From positions 434,001 to 498,000 of the forward strand of contig CANLUC010000001.1 in assembly GCA_947494195.1 (NCBI GenBank): DNA of 64,000 bases. The letters run 5' to 3'. The DNA comes from an uncultured Nesterenkonia sp. GTDB taxonomy: Bacteria; Actinomycetota; Actinomycetes; Actinomycetales; Micrococcaceae. Below are positions 1,029-10,050 of the stretch, in pieces. Under the pieces are notes generated by a model that worked only from the letters and a program-made list of their open reading frames with translations, did not search any database and was not told where the DNA came from. Each line of letters begins with the position of its first letter. Within the stretch, counting starts at the first letter, position 1. The position numbers and the translations under genes were made by a program.

Positions 1029-1149
1029 ACGTTGAGCGTAGAAGGGGCAGAAGATCCGGGTCATCCTCCCACAGAATGATCCTGCGCTCGGGTGCAGGTA
1101 GCGCTCCGGAGCGTCCACCGGGTGCCGCCGAGGCGGCTGGAGACATTAA

Positions 1150-1239
1150 GAGCCCCACGTGCACCTGCCAGAGCCCACTTACCCTTGCTACCTTCCGGTC
1201 CTGGGGGAGTTCAGCAGGATGGCACCGCACGTGGGGCCG
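1150..1239 (-). ncRNA. ffs: Signal recognition particle RNA, small (4.5S-like) type
   Basis: The minus strand carries the conserved SRP Alu-less hairpin tip CAGGACCGGAAGGTAGCAAG, including the GGAA tetraloop and the asymmetric internal loop that bind Ffh. The ends pair as GCCCCACGTGC with GCACGTGGGGC, which closes a rod of roughly 90 nucleotides, the length of the bacterial small-type RNA. A TAAGAT -10 box (reverse complement of 1246-1251) lies about seven bases before the proposed 5' end, and no convincing -35 is seen. The RNA acts with Ffh in co-translational targeting to the membrane. Exact ends are estimated from the helix. Confidence 0.93.
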
Positions 1240-1303
1240 GGAATCATCTTATCGTGAGGCTGCGTCCGAACGCGAATGGGTCGGGCGGCCTCCGCGGAGT
1301 TGA

Positions 1304-3189: not shown

Positions 3190-4167
3190 ATGCGTGCTGT
3201 CACCCATGCGACATTCGGCGAGCCCTGGGACGTCCTCACCGTGGAGGACGTCTCCGTCCCGGAGCCCGGAGCGGGCGAGGTCCGGATCCGGACGCTGATG
3301 TCTCCGATCCACAATCACGACCTCTGGACCATCCGCGGCAGCTACGGCTTCAAGCCCGAGCTTCCTGCGCGTGCCGGCACCGAGGCCGTGGGCGTCATCG
3401 ACGCCCTGGGCGAAGGTGTGGAGGGACTCTCCGTGGGTCAGCGCGTGGCCGCCGGTGGGACCTTCGGCGTCTGGGCGGAGTACTTCACCGCCGCGGCGGC
3501 TGGGCTCATCCCGGTGGATGAGGCTGCCGCCGATGACGTCGCCGCGCAGCTGGTGGCCATGCCGTTCTCCACGCTGGCGCTGTTGGACTGGCTCGACCTC
3601 AAGGAGGGCGACTGGATCATCCAGAACGCCGCCAACGGCGCCGTCGGACGTCTGCTCGCGCAGCTGGCTCCCACCCGCGGGATCAACGTGGTGGGTCTGG
3701 TGCGCCGGGACGCAGGCGTCGATGAGCTCGCCGAGCAGGGCATCTCCCGGATCGTCTCCACCGAGACCTCCGGCTGGGAGGATCGCGTCGCTGAGATCAC
3801 CGGAGGCGCGGCGATCACCGCTGGCATCGATTCAGTGGGTGGCGAGTCCAGCAACCAGGTCCTCTCCCAGCTGGGCGAGGAGGCCACGCTGGTGATCTTC
3901 GGCGCGATGGCCGGGGGCACGATGGAGCTGAACTCCGGTGCCATCATCTTCAAGGACGTCACCATCAAGGGCTTCTGGGGCAGCCGCGTGATGGGCTCCC
4001 TGGCGCCGCAGCGCCGCGGAGAGCTCTTCACCGAGCTGCTCACCCGGGTCCAGGACGGCTCGATCTCGCTGACCACCGAGGCCACCTACTCCTTCGAGAA
4101 GGTCCGCGAGGCCGCAGAGGCAAACTTCGTGCCCGGCCGCACGGGCAAGATCATGCTGCGCCCGTGA
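3190..4167 (+). CDS. MDR-family zinc-independent oxidoreductase (enoyl reductase/quinone reductase-like)
   Basis: The 325-residue product has the medium-chain dehydrogenase fold: an N-terminal GroES-like half (RAVTHATFGEPWDVLTVEDV, PIHNHDLWTIRGSYG, PARAGTEAVGVI) and a Rossmann half with the nucleotide motif AANGAVGRLLAQLA (about residues 149-162). The zinc-ligand cysteines of alcohol dehydrogenases are missing, which fits the ETR-like (2-enoyl thioester reductase) or NAD(P)H:quinone reductase branch. It would be cytoplasmic and NADPH dependent. AGGAAAG lies about 10 bases before the ATG. It is divergent from the decarboxylase across 203 bases and is followed by a long hairpin at 4176-4210. 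The exact substrate is unknown. Confidence 0.83.
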   Translation: MRAVTHATFGEPWDVLTVEDVSVPEPGAGEVRIRTLMSPIHNHDLWTIRGSYGFKPELPARAGTEAVGVIDALGEGVEGLSVGQRVAAGGTFGVWAEYFTAAAAGLIPVDEAAADDVAAQLVAMPFSTLALLDWLDLKEGDWIIQNAANGAVGRLLAQLAPTRGINVVGLVRRDAGVDELAEQGISRIVSTETSGWEDRVAEITGGAAITAGIDSVGGESSNQVLSQLGEEATLVIFGAMAGGTMELNSGAIIFKDVTIKGFWGSRVMGSLAPQRRGELFTELLTRVQDGSISLTTEATYSFEKVREAAEANFVPGRTGKIMLRP

Positions 4168-4175
4168 GTGCAGCA

Positions 4176-4210
4176 GGCGCAGGGCCGCTCCAGATGGAGC
4201 GCCCTGCGCC
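4176..4210. terminator. Long stem-loop between convergent genes
   Basis: GGCGCAGGGC (4176-4185) pairs perfectly with GCCCTGCGCC (4201-4210), and an inner GCTCCA/TGGAGC stem closes on a two-base loop. It sits eight bases after the oxidoreductase stop and 29 bases beyond the amt stop on the other strand, so it can serve both convergent genes. There is no T tract, so termination strength is uncertain. Confidence 0.7.
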
Positions 4211-4239
4211 GTGGGGCTGGCTCGCCCACGCCGGTCAGC

Positions 4240-5568
4240 TCAGCTTTGGGCGCCGGGGGCATCTTCTGCAGTTGCGCGATAGGCATGCTCCGCATGACCG
4301 CGGGGCGACCGGGCCTGAATCTCAGGGTCCTCGTATGCGTTCTCGTGGTGGTAGGCATTGTCGAGTCCCAGCAGCTCATCCTTCTCCGAGCTACGGATGC
4401 CCATGGTGGCCTTGATCACCAGCGCGATCAGCGCCGTGACTGTGAAGGTGTAGGCCGTCACGGCTAGGATCGCCACTGCCTGGCGGCCCAGCAGTTCAAG
4501 GCCTCCACCGTAGAGCAGACCGGTGGCACCGCTCGGGGCTGCCGGTGCGGCGAGCACACCGATGAGGAGCCCGCCAACCACTCCTCCGATGTAGTGCAGG
4601 GCAGTCACATCCAGGGCATCATCGATGCGCAGTCGATACTTCAATGACACTGCAAAGTAGCAAGCAACGCCTGCGGCGGCGCCTATCGCGAGGGCGCCGA
4701 GCGGCGACACGGCCCCGCAGGAAGGAGTAATCGCGACCAGAGAAGCGATAGCGCCTGAGGACATCCCCAGAGTCGTCACTGCCCCATCGCGAAGGCGCTC
4801 CACCCCGGCCCACGCGACAGCTCCAGCGCAGGCAGCAATAAGCGTGTTGAACACTGCCACCGCGGCATCGTTGTCTGCCGCTCCCAGAGCACTCCCGTCA
4901 AAACCGAGCCACCCAGTGAGCAGCAGACCGACTCCCACCAAAACCATTGGGAGGTTGTGCGCCTTGGGCTGAGCGGGCCACACCTGTCTGCGCCCCAAGA
5001 CCAGGGCGAGCGCCACGGCCGCGATGCCGCTGTTCACATGGATTGCCGTGGACCCTGCGTAGTCCACGGCTTCGAGGGAATTGGCGATCCAGCCTCCACG
5101 GACCGAGCCGTCCGCAGAATCGAACGCAAAAACCCAGTGCGCCACGGGTAGATAGCACAGCGTGACCCATATCGGGGCAAAGACCATCCACGCACGGAAT
5201 TTCATCCGATCCGCGGCGGCACCGGCCACAATCGCGATGGTCAGTCCCGCAAACGCGAGATGGATTGCCGCGAGCCCAAGAGGCGGGGCGGAATCCGAGT
5301 CTGCTGCAGTGAGGAGCTGCTCCAGACCCGCGTGTTCAAAGGGATTCCCGAGGAGCCCCAGACCCCCTAGCGAATCCCCAAAGACCATGGAGTACCCGAA
5401 GGCGACCCAGATGAAGGCAGTCACGCAGAAGCTGCCGAAGACCATCAGCATCATGTTCATGGCCGTTCTCCGCCCGACCATTCCGCCATAGAAGAGCACA
5501 AGCCCCGGGACCATCAGTACGACGGCGAGTATGGCCGTCAGTAACCACGCGGTATTGCCGGTATCCAT
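4240..5568 (-). CDS. amt: Ammonium transporter, Amt/AmtB family
   Basis: A 442-residue polytopic membrane protein of the Amt/Mep/Rh family that moves ammonium across the cytoplasmic membrane. The pore histidines are present: H177 in STAIHVNSG and H325 in DVTALHYIGG. The recruitment tryptophan (GGW, about 160) and aspartate (VDYAG, 169) are also kept. Two places differ from textbook Amt: HGVGG is HYIGG, and GFNAGSAL is shortened to GFDGSALG. The cytoplasmic tail is long, acidic and His-rich. The ATG is preceded by GGGAGGA at good spacing; an upstream GTG would place that site inside the gene. No PII (glnK) gene lies beside it; instead a TetR gene is immediately upstream on the same strand. Transport of methylammonium or other small amines is possible. 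Confidence 0.9.
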   Translation of the reverse strand: MDTGNTAWLLTAILAVVLMVPGLVLFYGGMVGRRTAMNMMLMVFGSFCVTAFIWVAFGYSMVFGDSLGGLGLLGNPFEHAGLEQLLTAADSDSAPPLGLAAIHLAFAGLTIAIVAGAAADRMKFRAWMVFAPIWVTLCYLPVAHWVFAFDSADGSVRGGWIANSLEAVDYAGSTAIHVNSGIAAVALALVLGRRQVWPAQPKAHNLPMVLVGVGLLLTGWLGFDGSALGAADNDAAVAVFNTLIAACAGAVAWAGVERLRDGAVTTLGMSSGAIASLVAITPSCGAVSPLGALAIGAAAGVACYFAVSLKYRLRIDDALDVTALHYIGGVVGGLLIGVLAAPAAPSGATGLLYGGGLELLGRQAVAILAVTAYTFTVTALIALVIKATMGIRSSEKDELLGLDNAYHHENAYEDPEIQARSPRGHAEHAYRATAEDAPGAQS

Positions 5569-5638
5569 TCGATGTCCTCCCACAGGTTCGCCGCCCTGAT
5601 GCGGGCGATCATGTAGGAGCTATCCTGGTGTAAGCGGA

Positions 5639-5660
5639 TTTCAATACTAATTCGATATTA
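5639..5660. promoter_or_regulatory. Candidate amt promoter with motif shared with glnT leader
   Basis: The nine bases TTTCAATAC at 5639-5647 recur exactly at 6421-6429 in front of the glutamine synthetase-like gene. On the minus strand a TAATAT (5655-5660) could be a -10 box for amt, with TCGACA at 5676-5681 as a -35 at a short 15-base spacing. The shared motif would then overlap the transcription start region, as a repressor site often does. The neighbouring TetR protein is the obvious candidate binder, but this is inference. Confidence 0.42.
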
Positions 5661-5671
5661 TGTCTATCGCG

Positions 5672-6352
5672 TTACTGTCGATCTTCATAGGCAAGTCGCG
5701 CCCTTGCTCCCGCCTTTGCGTCCGCCGCAAGCATGCGCAGCGCCAAATCCGCACCGAGATGAGCAAGGTCGGCCGCAGTGCCGATTGACCGGTCGTGGCG
5801 ATGCTGAAGACCCTCATTCAGCGCAAGCACCGCCCGGGCACCGTGTTCCGGGGAGAGCGGTGGAAACTCGCCCGCCGTCACCCCTTGCGCCACAAGAATG
5901 GCAACCAGACGCTGAAGCTCCATGTAATCTTCCGCGAAGCCGGCGAATGACTCGGGGTTCGCCGCGGCGGCGCGCTCCAGCTCGTAGTACGGAAGAGCTG
6001 CGCTGATCATCTGCTCTATATCTGCGTGGATGACGCGGTAAAGCCGCTCGGCCGCCGAACCGGAGAGATCCACTGCCTCCCGCGCAACCTTCAAAGAGGC
6101 CCGATTGTCCTCCGCCAGGGTGGCGAGAATGACTTCCTTACTGGAGAACCAGTAGTAGGCAGAGGACTGGTTGATGCCGGCGCGCTCGGCTATCGCCGAC
6201 ATTGTCGTCCGATCGACGCCTCGATCCAGGAACAGTTCTACGGCAGCCACAATCAAATCGCGACGAGTATTCCCACTTCCCGCGCCGCGACTGCGCGGGC
6301 GCCCCCGGACGGGTGTTGTCTTGATGGGATCCAAGCTGACTTCCTTCCTCAC
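5672..6352 (-). CDS. TetR/AcrR-family transcriptional regulator
   Basis: The 226-residue protein begins with a basic, disordered arm (about residues 1-28). The TetR DNA-binding domain follows: LIVAAVELFLDRGVDRTTMSAIAERAGINQSSAYYWFSSKEVIL, with the recognition helix around NQSSAYYWF. The remaining helical part, about 80-220, would bind a ligand and dimerise. It lies directly upstream of amt on the same strand (103 bases apart) and is divergent from the glnT-like gene with 98 bases between the coding regions. That position, plus the shared motif in both promoter regions, suggests it controls the whole cassette and senses a nitrogen compound. The ligand is unknown. Confidence 0.85.
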   Translation of the reverse strand: MRKEVSLDPIKTTPVRGRPRSRGAGSGNTRRDLIVAAVELFLDRGVDRTTMSAIAERAGINQSSAYYWFSSKEVILATLAEDNRASLKVAREAVDLSGSAAERLYRVIHADIEQMISAALPYYELERAAAANPESFAGFAEDYMELQRLVAILVAQGVTAGEFPPLSPEHGARAVLALNEGLQHRHDRSIGTAADLAHLGADLALRMLAADAKAGARARLAYEDRQ

Positions 6353-6420
6353 ACCTTCTGAATGGTTTTACCCGACTGAAACAGAGCGGGAACAGCACGG
6401 ACACTGAAGTGCTCCAGTAT

Positions 6421-6439
6421 TTTCAATACACCATTGAAA
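6421..6439. promoter_or_regulatory. Inverted repeat in glnT-like leader, candidate TetR operator
   Basis: TTTCAATACACCATTGAAA is an inverted repeat (TTTCAA, seven bases, TTGAAA) that ends one base before the AGGAGG ribosome binding site of the ligase gene. Its left part TTTCAATAC also occurs before amt. A bound repressor here would block initiation or early elongation. A CAGTAT just upstream (6415-6420) might be the -10 box. Confidence 0.45.
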
Positions 6440-6450
6440 CAGGAGGCACC

Positions 6451-7824
6451 ATGACTGCTGAACATCTGACCGCGACAACGCCCGACGTCGAAAAATTGAC
6501 CAGCGAGCTTCGCGCCAAGGGCGTTAAGTACGCGATTGCCAGCTTCGCCGACCTGCACGGCAAGCCTAAGGGGAAGTTCGTCCCCATCGACCACTTGGCT
6601 CGCATGGCTGCCGGGTCCGAGCTCTTCACCGGAGCGGCGCTGGACGGGCTGCCCCAGGAGGTCTCGGATGAGGAGCTTTCGGCAATCCCAGACCTGTCCC
6701 GATGGTTCCAGGCTCCCTGGGATTCGCGGATTGCCTACTTCCCCAGCCTGCTTGCGACCGAGGGCGAGCTGTTTGAAGCATCCTCGCGCAACGTTCTTCA
6801 CCGACAGCTCGAAGCGGCAGCCGAACTCGGCTACACCTTCAACCTCGGTATCGAGACGGAATTCTTCGTATTCCAGGACCGGGACGGCCGTCACGACTCC
6901 GTCAGCGAGCGAGACATCCTCGATAAGCCCAGCTACGACGTCGCGTCAGCCATCGACAACTTCGGATGGTTGTCTGAGCTGGTTGACGCAATGAACGACC
7001 TGGACTGGGACGTCTATTCCTTCGACCACGAAGATGCACAGGGTCAGTTCGAGATCGACTTCACCTACTCGGATGCCATGACGATGGCCGACAGGGTCTC
7101 TTTCTTCCGGCTCATGACGGGCGAGATCACACGCAAGCATGGACACTTCGCATCCTTCATGCCGAAACCTTTCGTCGACCGGACAGGTTCTGGTGCGCAT
7201 TACAATATGTCACTGGCCGATGCGCAGACCGGAGAGAACCTTTTCATTCCCAAGGATGACGACCAGTACGGGGCGGGCGTCTCGAAGCTTGCGTACCACT
7301 TCGCCGCTGGCGTACTGCGGCACGCGAAGGCCATCAGCGCCGTCATCGCACCTACCGTGAACAGCTACAAGCGTCTGACACACAAGGGCAGCATGTCTGG
7401 CTCTACCTGGGCCCCGGTATTCGTTTCCTACGGGGACAACAACCGGACCAACATGCTGCGTGTTCCCCTTGCTGGCGGACGCATCGAATGCCGTGCCGCT
7501 GATATCAGCTGCAACCCATATATGGGGTCGGCACTGATCCTCGCCGCCGGCCTGGAAGGGATCAGGGAACAGCTTGACCCTGGTGAACCGCACCGAGAAA
7601 ACATGTACAGCTACACGGAATCAGAGATAGCAGAGCAGGGTCTGCAGATGCTGCCCCGCGATCTCGGTGAGGCTATCGAAGAGTTCCGTGCAGACAGTCT
7701 GACTCGTGAGGTTTTCGGAGACCTGCTCTACAACGCGTTCATCGACTATAAGACGGACGAATGGGAGTCCTACCGTGACCACGTGAGCTCCTGGGAGACT
7801 GACCGATACCTCCGGTTCTTCTGA
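6451..7824 (+). CDS. glnT: Type III glutamine synthetase-like glutamate-amine ligase
   Basis: A 457-residue member of the glutamine synthetase superfamily that matches the GSIII/GlnT branch described from rhizobia, which also includes gamma-glutamylmethylamide synthetases. The N-terminal beta-grasp part ends near residue 110. Active-site elements follow: GIETEFFVF (E135, E137), EDAQGQFEID (194-203), GSGAHYNMSL (247-255), and NRTNMLRVPLAGGRIECRAADISCNP (331-355), carrying the conserved arginines and metal-binding glutamate. The ATG has AGGAGG seven bases upstream; an earlier in-frame start lacks a site and would run through the inverted repeat. It forms an operon with the MetX-like hydrolase two bases downstream. 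The linkage to an ammonium transporter and TetR regulator suggests scavenging of ammonia or a small amine by gamma-glutamylation. Ammonia versus alkylamine as substrate cannot be decided here. Confidence 0.84.
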   Translation: MTAEHLTATTPDVEKLTSELRAKGVKYAIASFADLHGKPKGKFVPIDHLARMAAGSELFTGAALDGLPQEVSDEELSAIPDLSRWFQAPWDSRIAYFPSLLATEGELFEASSRNVLHRQLEAAAELGYTFNLGIETEFFVFQDRDGRHDSVSERDILDKPSYDVASAIDNFGWLSELVDAMNDLDWDVYSFDHEDAQGQFEIDFTYSDAMTMADRVSFFRLMTGEITRKHGHFASFMPKPFVDRTGSGAHYNMSLADAQTGENLFIPKDDDQYGAGVSKLAYHFAAGVLRHAKAISAVIAPTVNSYKRLTHKGSMSGSTWAPVFVSYGDNNRTNMLRVPLAGGRIECRAADISCNPYMGSALILAAGLEGIREQLDPGEPHRENMYSYTESEIAEQGLQMLPRDLGEAIEEFRADSLTREVFGDLLYNAFIDYKTDEWESYRDHVSSWETDRYLRFF

Positions 7825-7826
7825 TC

Positions 7827-8795
7827 ATGAAAACAGGCACGCACCCGTTGGGCAGGTTCCCTCTGGAGAAGGGTGGCGACCTCCCTTCAGCCGTCCTGAG
7901 CTATGCCACCTATGGCACGCTGAACGAATCCGGGAACAACGCTGTGCTCCTTCCGACGTACTACACCGGCACCCACGGGAGTTATGCGCCCTGGATCGGA
8001 CACAACCAGACCCTAGACCCGCGGAAGTGGTTCATAGTCTCAGTGGACATGTTGGGGAACGGTTGCTCCACGTCTCCCAGTACCTCCAACGCCAGGGATT
8101 TCCCAGACACCACCATCCTGGACAATGTGACCGCCCAATCGCATCTTCTCCGAGAACTGGGAGTCACGTCGATCGCGATGGTGGCAGGGTGGTCCATGGG
8201 CGCGATGCAGGCCCTGAGATGGGGGGCTGAGCAGCCGATTCCTGTGCGTGCGGTGCTCTCGGTCTGTGGCACGCTGAGTTGCGGATCTAGCAACGGCGTG
8301 TTCCTCGACGGCCTGCTCGACATCCTCGCAGCCCGGTCCGGGGAACGGGATCCGGCGGTGTTGCGCGCCTTCGGTGCCGTCTACGCTGGTTGGGCCTACT
8401 CGTCGCGCGTCCTGGCCGGTGAAGGTCTGCGTGATCTCGGGTACGCCGACGTCGAGGACATGATGGACTCTTGGCGCCAAGATCATGAGAAGTTCCACGC
8501 TGGGGACCTCGAATCTATGGCGCGCACCTGGAGACATTCATATTCAGAAGTGTCCGAGCAGGAGATCCAGTCGATCTTGCGCCGTATCACCGCCCGTACG
8601 ATCGTCATGCCGGGCTCGACAGACGCCTACTTCACGGCGAGACAAGCTGTTGAGGAAGCTCGGTGGATCGCTGACGTAGAAGTCCGCGAGCTCGAGTCTG
8701 AACTCGGCCATGTGGCTGGCCGGCCTGGGGTACGTCGCACGGAAGGTGCCGCGGTTGAGGGGGCGCTCTCCGATCTCCTAGCGGGCCGGCACTAG
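7827..8795 (+). CDS. MetX-like alpha/beta hydrolase of the nitrogen cassette
   Basis: The 322-residue protein has the alpha/beta hydrolase layout of the homoserine O-acetyltransferase group. YATYG and an LLPTYYTGTHGSY oxyanion region come first, then the nucleophile elbow AGWSMGAMQALRWG with S123, D266 in MPGSTDAYF and H295 in ELGHVAG. Some family members are true acetyltransferases; others are esterases or amidases. It starts two bases after the glnT-like stop and has no methionine-synthesis neighbour. A hydrolase that frees ammonia or an amine for the preceding ligase is therefore more plausible than a role in methionine synthesis. The substrate is not identifiable from sequence. Its stop overlaps the gluQRS stop by four bases, and its composition matches the rest of the cassette. 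Confidence 0.78.
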   Translation: MKTGTHPLGRFPLEKGGDLPSAVLSYATYGTLNESGNNAVLLPTYYTGTHGSYAPWIGHNQTLDPRKWFIVSVDMLGNGCSTSPSTSNARDFPDTTILDNVTAQSHLLRELGVTSIAMVAGWSMGAMQALRWGAEQPIPVRAVLSVCGTLSCGSSNGVFLDGLLDILAARSGERDPAVLRAFGAVYAGWAYSSRVLAGEGLRDLGYADVEDMMDSWRQDHEKFHAGDLESMARTWRHSYSEVSEQEIQSILRRITARTIVMPGSTDAYFTARQAVEEARWIADVEVRELESELGHVAGRPGVRRTEGAAVEGALSDLLAGRH

Positions 8796-9733
8796 CCTGC
8801 CTGCAGTGAAGTCGGCCTGAACACCCAGGGCTCCCGCGGCAGGCTGACTGGGTCGAAGGACTCCAGTGCCGCGGCCAGCGTCCCGGCGGAGAGTCCCAGC
8901 GAGTCCAGCAGCATCTCGCGCAGGGCCTCGTCGGTCAGGCCCTGCTCCCGCAGTGCCGAGCGGGTCACGGCCCCGTCCCGCTTGGCCAGGCGCTGCCCCT
9001 CGGAGTTGAGCACGAGGGGCACATGGGCATAGACGACCTCCGAGGCCGCCACGGTCCCGTAGAGCAGGCCGCGCAGGTAGGCCTGGCTCGGGGCCGAGGC
9101 GGCGAGGTCGTCCCCGCGGACCACCTGGTCCACCCCGGTGAGGTGATCATCGACCACCACCGCCAGGTTGTAGGCCGGGGCGCCGTCGTTGCGCTGGAGC
9201 ACGAAGTCATCCACTCCGGTGGTGATCTCCCCGAGCAGCAGGTCCTGCACGCTGACCTGCGGGGCGGCGCCGTCGTCGTCGCGGTCGGCGCGCAGTCGCA
9301 GCGAGGCAGGGCGCTCGGCACGACGGCGCGCGCGTTCTGTCTCGCTGAGGTTCCGGCAGGTGCCGGGATAGACCCCGGGAGTCGCATGCGGGGCGCGGGT
9401 GGCCTCCCGGATGTCCTTGCGCGAGCAGAAGCATTCAAAGGTCAGCCTCGACGCGGTGAGCTGCTCGAGGGCTTCCGCGTAGAGACTCAGCCGGTCGGAC
9501 TGCCTGATGGACGCGTGGCCATTCCTGGGGTCGAAGGTCAGACCCACTGCGTGCAGATCCTCGAGCTGCTGGGCTTCGGCACCCTGAACCGTGCGTTCGG
9601 CATCCAGGTCCTCGAACCGGAGCAGGAAGTCCCGGCTGCTCCACCGCGCGAAGAGCCAGGCCAGCATTCCCGTGCGCAGGTTCCCGAGATGAAGGTCTCC
9701 GGAGGGACTGGGCGCGTAGCGTCCTGCAGGCAC
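8792..9733 (-). CDS. gluQRS: Glutamyl-Q tRNA(Asp) synthetase
   Basis: At 313 residues this is a truncated glutamyl-tRNA synthetase catalytic domain, as expected for GluQRS, which attaches glutamate to queuosine in the tRNA(Asp) anticodon. The HIGH-like motif is PSPSGDLHLGN near the N-terminus and the KMSKS-like loop is RLAKRDGAV. A zinc site is suggested by FECFCSRKD and the later YPGTC. No anticodon-binding C-terminal domain is present. It lies tail to tail with the cassette hydrolase and is divergent from the tRNA-Ser gene. Confidence 0.92.
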   Translation of the reverse strand: MPAGRYAPSPSGDLHLGNLRTGMLAWLFARWSSRDFLLRFEDLDAERTVQGAEAQQLEDLHAVGLTFDPRNGHASIRQSDRLSLYAEALEQLTASRLTFECFCSRKDIREATRAPHATPGVYPGTCRNLSETERARRRAERPASLRLRADRDDDGAAPQVSVQDLLLGEITTGVDDFVLQRNDGAPAYNLAVVVDDHLTGVDQVVRGDDLAASAPSQAYLRGLLYGTVAASEVVYAHVPLVLNSEGQRLAKRDGAVTRSALREQGLTDEALREMLLDSLGLSAGTLAAALESFDPVSLPREPWVFRPTSLQAG

Positions 9734-9920: not shown

Positions 9921-10005
9921 GGAGGATTCGCCTAGCGGCCTATGGCGCACGCTTGGAACGCGTGTTGGGTTCACGCCCTCGGGGGTTCAAATCCCCCATC
10001 CTCCG
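9921..10005 (+). tRNA. tRNA-Ser (anticodon GGA)
   Basis: The acceptor arms GGAGGAT and ATCCTCC pair perfectly, the anticodon stem-loop is CACGC-TTGGAAC-GCGTG with anticodon GGA, and the T arm is GGGGG-TTCAAAT-CCCCC. A long variable arm makes it a class II tRNA of about 85 bases, as serine tRNAs are. CCA is not fully encoded (GCA follows). A strong terminator comes six bases later. Confidence 0.96.
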
Positions 10006-10011
10006 CAGCAC

Positions 10012-10050
10012 GAAGCCCGTCAGCCTGGATCAGGCTGACGGGCTTCTTTG
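10012..10050 (+). terminator. Intrinsic terminator after tRNA-Ser
   Basis: GAAGCCCGTCAGCCTG (10012-10027) pairs perfectly with CAGGCTGACGGGCTTC (10031-10046) across a three-base loop, followed by TTTGTG. This 16-bp stem ends the tRNA transcript. It also lies downstream of the convergent small Cys-rich gene and may stop that too. Confidence 0.92.

Follow-up and report, generated by a model that had tools for sequence, protein, structure and literature searches.

A transferred Amt, TetR, ligase and hydrolase cassette in Nesterenkonia and a possible route of small-amine glutamylation

Two described ligase systems lie closest to the locus reported here. Active-site roles have been assigned for the methylamine ligase RhGmaS, and the sections of PMC7948447 used here place Ala48' at the position of Asp50' of glutamine synthetase and Trp300 at that of its flap Glu. 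In Streptomyces coelicolor, the GlnA4 ethanolamine cluster combines a gamma-glutamyl-amine ligase with a regulator, a putative transporter and a hydrolase, and further holds two dehydrogenases and a glutamine amidotransferase; the excerpts of PMC6529630 describing it also report that D50 and E327 of glutamine synthetase are not conserved in GlnA4. For the hydrolase of our locus, the best solved matches by both sequence and fold are the acetylester hydrolase of C. glutamicum (5d6o) and MekB (5e4y). We take the protein in 5d6o to be CgHle, and we know of no operon link between either enzyme and a ligase.

Here we analyse a four-gene cassette in a 2.78-Mb genome of an uncultured Nesterenkonia sp. 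It lies in the window, by which we mean the whole stretch of 64,000 nucleotides that was analysed. Like the GlnA4 cluster as excerpted, the cassette encodes a ligase, a regulator, a putative transporter and a hydrolase; unlike it, the cassette has an Amt and an alpha/beta hydrolase and lacks the two dehydrogenases and the amidotransferase. An earlier note on this DNA had known of no named pathway with exactly this set. Our literature search agrees, as neither such a pathway nor a published description of the four-gene set was found among the matches listed. The cassette is probably a variant of known glutamylation pathways that has not been worked out before.

The insert and its empty site

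Profile matches confirmed the four gene families previously named at 4240-8795, which form two divergent units. On the minus strand are amt (4240..5583), an Amt-family channel gene scoring 380.3 bits against the TIGR00836 cut-off of 343.3, and tetR (5672..6352; PF00440), the gene of a probable cognate regulator. On the plus strand is the gene of a gamma-glutamyl-amide (GmaS-like, 'type III') ligase (6451..7824), whose open reading frame at 6409-7824 scores 546 against the TIGR03105 cut-off of 469.6 bits; the start is most likely the ATG at 6451, which has GGAGG upstream, rather than the GTG at 6409. It is followed by an alpha/beta hydrolase gene of PRK07581/MetX-like type (7827..8795, plus strand). 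ORF and family searches recognised no further genes in the insert. We infer that a GC-rich hairpin at its amt end (4176..4210), seen by eye, lacking a T run and not reported by a computational search, is a terminator.

Both flanking genes are native. To the left lies a medium-chain quinone-oxidoreductase-like gene (3190..4167, plus strand) and to the right gluQRS (8792..9733, minus strand), whose last codons the insert has replaced: by eye, GluQRS ends in FRPTSLQAG in the window and in FRPTDL in the nearest relative, L085. The stops of the hydrolase (8795) and gluQRS (8792) overlap, as already recorded for this locus. Among 30 genomes of the genus, 21 match gluQRS at E<=1e-60, the window's own included. 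In eight of the 20 other gluQRS-bearing congeners (L085-L092), the oxidoreductase gene adjoins gluQRS across only a short spacer; in the remaining 12 it was not found within ~1.5 kb either side of gluQRS. Alignment to L085, at 91-94% DNA identity, ends at window position 4174 and restarts at 8811. This homology break gives the insert approximate limits of 4175..8810, and L085 has about 24-25 bp where the window has 4.6 kb.

The three genomes nearest by gluQRS (G203, G205 and G214) contain no relative of the cassette ligase at E<=1e-90. At that threshold, ligase relatives occur in six of the 30 genus genomes (the window, four at 61-64% identity and one at 40%), and the other Amts of the genus, including this genome's second Amt, are 44-46% identical to the cassette Amt. 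No repeats within 4150-8840 frame the insert, and ORF and family searches recognised no integrase between the native flanks. A tRNA gene, tRNA-Ser (GGA) at 9921-10006, is more than 1 kb away from the insert; it is followed at 10012-10046 by a self-complementary, terminator-like hairpin that also occurs in L085 and L090. Elsewhere in the window, a bacterial small SRP RNA (1145-1241, minus strand) is overlapped by mechanical ORFs.

Compared within the window, G+C content is 61.3% in the insert versus 67.7% in the remainder. The values for amt, tetR, ligase and hydrolase (63.3, 62.4, 59.0 and 62.3%) all fall below the lowest of 38 other, mechanically picked long ORFs of the window (63.5%), and only 1, 1, 3 and 1 of these 38 have a lower GC3 than the respective gene. 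The insert is thus G+C-poor, as first noticed, but the figure of near 58% given at the time describes its low end and not its mean: 1-kb windows reach 58.2% at 7001-8000 and 59-60% at other places in 5501-7500. Because the site is empty in eight congeners, G+C is low, the layout occurs elsewhere and a palindrome is shared (see below), the four-gene set is almost certainly a transferred, co-regulated unit. The earlier note had suggested a transferred functional module; its proposed checks of composition and of flanks in relatives both strongly support that part of the idea.

Ligase and channel

The solved structures nearest to the ligase are 9qur, a glutamate–methylamine ligase, and 7cql, RhGmaS. 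We mapped its residues by hand through the numbering of PMC7948447, from which the 7cql chain is offset by 20. The ligase belongs to the fold family of GmaS and keeps equivalents of the catalytic Arg312, Asp177 and Glu186 (R332, D192 and E201). Also as in GmaS, it lacks the two residues with which glutamine synthetase handles ammonia, having T60 in place of Ala48' (Asp50' of glutamine synthetase) and W320 in place of Trp300 (the flap Glu). The two enzymes differ at Ala48' itself and in the methylamine pocket, where Gln175, Asn188 and Trp189 of GmaS become S190, D203 and F204. T60, S190, D203, F204 and W320 are invariant in 42 alignment rows (41 loci and the window), a count that omits the misread or too-short rows G133, G049 and a PuuA-like protein of the same genome and comes from an alignment without L078, L081 and L117-L121. 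The scan pattern FDHEDAQ includes D192 and E194, and the search itself thus accounts in part for the invariance of these two. The 40% relative in the genus (G188) carries A, A, N and V at the T60, S190, D203 and F204 positions.

Since the active site lacks both ammonia-handling residues, the substrate would be an amine rather than ammonia. The protein scores above the cut-off of TIGR03105, the GmaS profile; from its residues we predict a gamma-glutamyl-amide ligase and do not class it as GmaS. N-methylglutamate synthase, the partner of GmaS, has no close match in the genome: a query with one subunit from a single source gave a best match of 34% in a 1601-aa GltB-looking frame, and one weaker. 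The nitrogen role proposed for a glutamate ligase beside an Amt is supported by family membership. As to what the ligase would capture, ammonium or a small amine in the first account, the active site makes glutamine synthesis from ammonia unlikely and indicates an amine.

These residues bear on plain ammonia scavenging, in which Amt would import ammonium, the ligase would make glutamine and the hydrolase would be incidental. The family names (TIGR00836, TIGR03105) and the intact pore histidines of the channel fit that account, but it has to accommodate a ligase missing both residues, a genome that already holds three other GS-domain genes and a second Amt, and a ligase-hydrolase pair kept in 23 loci of two cluster types and in the window. 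We consider it improbable.

Aligned to EcAmtB, the cassette Amt keeps the equivalents of the twin His, F107, F215 and D160, and by profile score it belongs to the family. It lacks the S1-site Trp: the equivalent of W148 is F152. Phe occupies this position in all 11 readable cassette Amts (the window's and 10 of 10 from the type A loci described below), a further one in Cryobacterium (L048, 7648-8984) being broken by an in-frame stop; the second Amt of the genome, the one non-cassette Amt compared, has Trp. W148 belongs to the S1 ammonium site according to the available parts of PMC10433425, and those of PMC7256485 cite raised methylammonium transport by EcAmtB for W148A and S219A. W148F may behave like W148A. 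The mutants cited in those parts of PMC7256485 do not include W148F, and the triple S1 mutant F107A/W148A/S219A is cited there as transporting near wild type; both points count against the mechanism that we propose below.

A plasmid search returned 263 records at E<=1e-60, none at >=60% identity. The two plasmid neighbourhoods examined carry amidotransferase, glxC/GXGXG and glutamate-synthase-like genes, and one also has amtB. On a plasmid of Pseudomonas aeruginosa RW109 (L083, 8013-13821), genes annotated as glutamine synthetase 3, glutamate-synthase-like proteins and amtB are consecutive. An Amt in a GmaS-type cluster is therefore not unique, because this plasmid amtB follows a type III ligase and glutamate-synthase-like genes. 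The genome studied here also holds a second gamma-glutamyl-amine-like cluster (L023, G000:C3:255000-273000), with a permease, a GS-like gene, a Peptidase C26 (PuuD-like) gene and an aldehyde dehydrogenase (permease and dehydrogenase identified by eye), and with the second Amt nearby.

Recurrence and hydrolase neighbours

Scanning 84,980 genomes with two ligase patterns yielded 43 loci, one of them (L081) a 22-residue match only; the scan finds close relatives only, and all locus counts are therefore lower bounds. Type A comprises 11 of the 43 (L039-L049) and has the identical divergent four-gene layout, so in this part of the ligase-found loci the four genes occur together, as the earlier proposal of a co-occurrence check had asked. 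Its hosts are Arthrobacter, Pseudarthrobacter, Cryobacterium and Planctomonas (Micrococcaceae and Microbacteriaceae). Type B, also 11 loci, is found in four Nesterenkonia (N. haasae among them), three Nocardia, two mycobacteria, Aeromicrobium and Desertihabitans, and L117 is one further locus of this type. Its TetR (orthologous in 11/11), palindrome, ligase and hydrolase are orthologous to those of the cassette, the TetR of the N. haasae cluster being 44% identical. In place of Amt, type B has an ABC importer with an SsuA-like binding protein (10/11) and, after ligase and hydrolase, a D-2-hydroxyacid dehydrogenase, a 2-hydroxy-3-oxopropionate-reductase-like dehydrogenase and an FAD monooxygenase, family assignments that score under the model cut-offs. 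In L075, TetR precedes the ligase and the examined stretch shows no importer. The other 20 loci with a full or partial ligase are cyanobacterial except for the gammaproteobacterial L080.

Sampled frequencies at E<=1e-150 were 2 of 396 genomes of the order and 5 of 396 of the phylum, with the window in both; the ligase subfamily is therefore rare. Hydrolase relatives at E<=1e-20 are commoner (15 of 197 family genomes) and mostly distant or partial, and no GS-like ORF was seen by eye in five loci of distant ones (36-39% identity). Trees of ligase, hydrolase and TetR each separate types A and B. In the ligase and hydrolase trees, both flagged with long-branch warnings, the window is placed next to type B, and in the TetR tree next to type A. 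Its end branch is long in every one of them, and a separate lineage that shares the type A layout is the best description of it. An Arthrobacter-type donor gains no support from these trees or from a comparison of G+C with the flanks (not with whole genomes), in which seven of the 11 type A cassettes differ from their flanks by no more than 0.5 points, two are lower by 1.5-1.8 and two (L043, L048) by 3-4.

The hydrolase falls far short of the MetX cut-offs. It reaches 113 bits against a cut-off of 500 for the homoserine acyltransferase model TIGR01392; its top NCBIfam match, PRK07581, gives 268 bits and is also below its cut-off (332), which a cyanobacterial relative in L051 exceeds at 468. 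S123, D266 and H295 are invariant in a 22-row alignment and are taken as the catalytic triad. An AlphaFold2 model (pLDDT 93.8) superposes on 5d6o and 5e4y with a TM of 0.92, above MetX enzymes; sequence identity to these two is just 28-31%. The hydrolase had been assigned the release of nitrogen; its nearest solved relatives, being acetyl-ester hydrolases, lend that no support.

We surveyed the ligase neighbours at 47 loci, namely the 42 pattern-scan loci other than L081, together with L117-L121. In 38 of them the gene directly beside the ligase comes from one of three hydrolase families that are unrelated to one another. Twenty-four loci (all 22 of types A and B, L117 and L080) have an alpha/beta hydrolase of the cassette's family there, ten a class I amidotransferase and four a creatininase-family gene. 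An alpha/beta hydrolase also occurs in L051, downstream of the ligase in the same gene run but not adjacent, and some kilobases off in L050 and L064 of the amidotransferase group. By tblastn, eight loci (L052, L054, L056, L057, L074, L077, L078, L119) have none of the three, the examined stretch stopping at or just past the ligase in L056, L077 and L078. This swapping of hydrolases beside the ligase is our main ground for placing the hydrolase in the same route.

The order of the two steps is another matter. The hydrolase could act before the ligase, the order given in the earlier note: within the cell it would split a small amide or ester, the ligase would capture the amine or ammonia so released, and Amt would recover leakage. 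Such an order avoids a futile cycle, and the creatininase-family neighbours are relatives of amidohydrolases. On the far side of amt, moreover, four of the 11 type A loci (L042, L044, L047, L049) carry genes for a carbon-nitrogen hydrolase, a cytosine/purine-type permease and a zinc-type alcohol dehydrogenase, which fit the same order; families upstream of type A amt, TetR excepted, were profile-tested for L042 and read by eye in the others. But the cassette has no uptake gene for an amide or ester, and the closest hydrolase structures are those of acetyl-ester hydrolases, so we consider a hydrolase-first order rather unlikely. By eye, an additional TetR gene adjoins the type A cassette at least in L042, L044 and L049.

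Seven cyanobacterial loci encode an iron-type alcohol dehydrogenase and an aldehyde dehydrogenase, as expected for a glutamylated amino-alcohol route like the one proposed for GlnA4 in the excerpts of PMC6529630; L053 has only the former. In L051 (1406-10691) and L078 (8325-10867), the cassette-type ligase subfamily stands beside arginase-family ureohydrolases, and L051 additionally has hypA, hypB, a Rieske oxygenase, an NMT1-type importer and its alpha/beta hydrolase; these may be substituted-guanidine clusters. In L118 (1265-9436), ligase and creatininase-family gene lie near a large biotin-dependent carboxylase gene, presumably for a urea or guanidine carboxylase. For the window-type cassette, guanidine was set aside as a lead only, as the ureohydrolase-family neighbours (PF00491 in L078, agmatinase-like in L051) do not occur there. 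Scans of the window, L051, L118, L074, L039 and L080 for a guanidine riboswitch or other Rfam element gave only the SRP RNA of the window above threshold.

A shared operator and a proposed route

A 19-bp palindrome, TTTCNATANNNTATNGAAA, emerged as a consensus from the loci compared here. Putative TetR operators lie before the ligase (6421..6439, TTTCAATACACCATTGAAA, one mismatch) and before amt (5639..5657, TTTCAATACTAATTCGATA, a weaker site with three mismatches). Both promoters carry the palindrome in 11/11 type A loci with <=2 mismatches; other sites in these loci and the window number none at two mismatches, one at three (~276 kb) and five at four. All 11 type B loci have it <=105 bases before the ligase match, again with <=2 mismatches, in a scan of 500 bp upstream and without a separate background. 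With a looser pattern, the genome of the window shows the cassette ligase site at zero mismatches and three other places at two, and a reversed control gave no sites. The search of seven other genomes gave 22 distinct sites, 17 of them inside cassettes and five, each with two mismatches, outside; the reversed control found one site, in one genome. No sigma-70-like promoters were found. The TetR is thus inferred to bind the palindromes, and with one TetR gene and a palindrome at both promoters the cassette genes apparently share regulation.

Judged from palindrome sites only, the TetR regulon is apparently small and local. That would suit a detoxification or synthesis unit, in which the ligase would block a harmful amine or produce a gamma-glutamyl compound and the TetR would sense stress; the lack of a complete catabolic route in the cassette would suit it as well. 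Yet the unit holds an uptake channel and no efflux pump, and the second cluster type has ABC uptake and oxidation genes. We regard this role as quite doubtful.

We instead favour, at slightly less than even confidence, small-amine uptake and glutamylation for nitrogen, in which the hydrolase would cleave a coupled ester or amide. In this mechanism, TetR would bind the palindromes and be released by a small primary amine (alkyl or hydroxyalkyl) or a product. The variant Amt would let the amine in, as the ammonium form, and the ligase would couple it to glutamate, dependent on ATP, to give a gamma-glutamyl amide. The alpha/beta hydrolase would then cleave an ester or amide of the glutamylated intermediate, standing in for the class I glutamine amidotransferase or creatininase-family enzyme found beside the same ligase elsewhere; any oxidation step between the two would come from host enzymes. 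Several points beyond the Amt mutants weigh against glutamylation followed by hydrolysis. With no close N-methylglutamate synthase match in the genome, there would be no known step to follow a methylamine product, and a ligase with a gamma-glutamyl hydrolase but no oxidation step would run a futile cycle. The nearest solved hydrolase relatives cut acetyl esters, not amides, eight of 47 loci have none of the three hydrolases, and the window's amt palindrome has three mismatches.

More broadly, and with less confidence still, these loci of actinobacteria, cyanobacteria and a gammaproteobacterium may belong to a family of gamma-glutamyl-amine pathways that has not been described, with the T60/S190/D203/F204 ligase subfamily as its hallmark and any of three unrelated hydrolases to complete the route. 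The Amt cassette would be its smallest and most mobile form, with Amt retuned for an amine. The TIGR03105 model is named 'type III glutamate--ammonia ligase', and the active site described here indicates an amine, not ammonia. The set, a single regulator, channel, ligase and hydrolase, is compact enough for its substrate to be tested with few assays. The cassette would thereby test whether organic amines are within reach of a retuned Amt and whether glutamylation pathways exchange their hydrolases freely.
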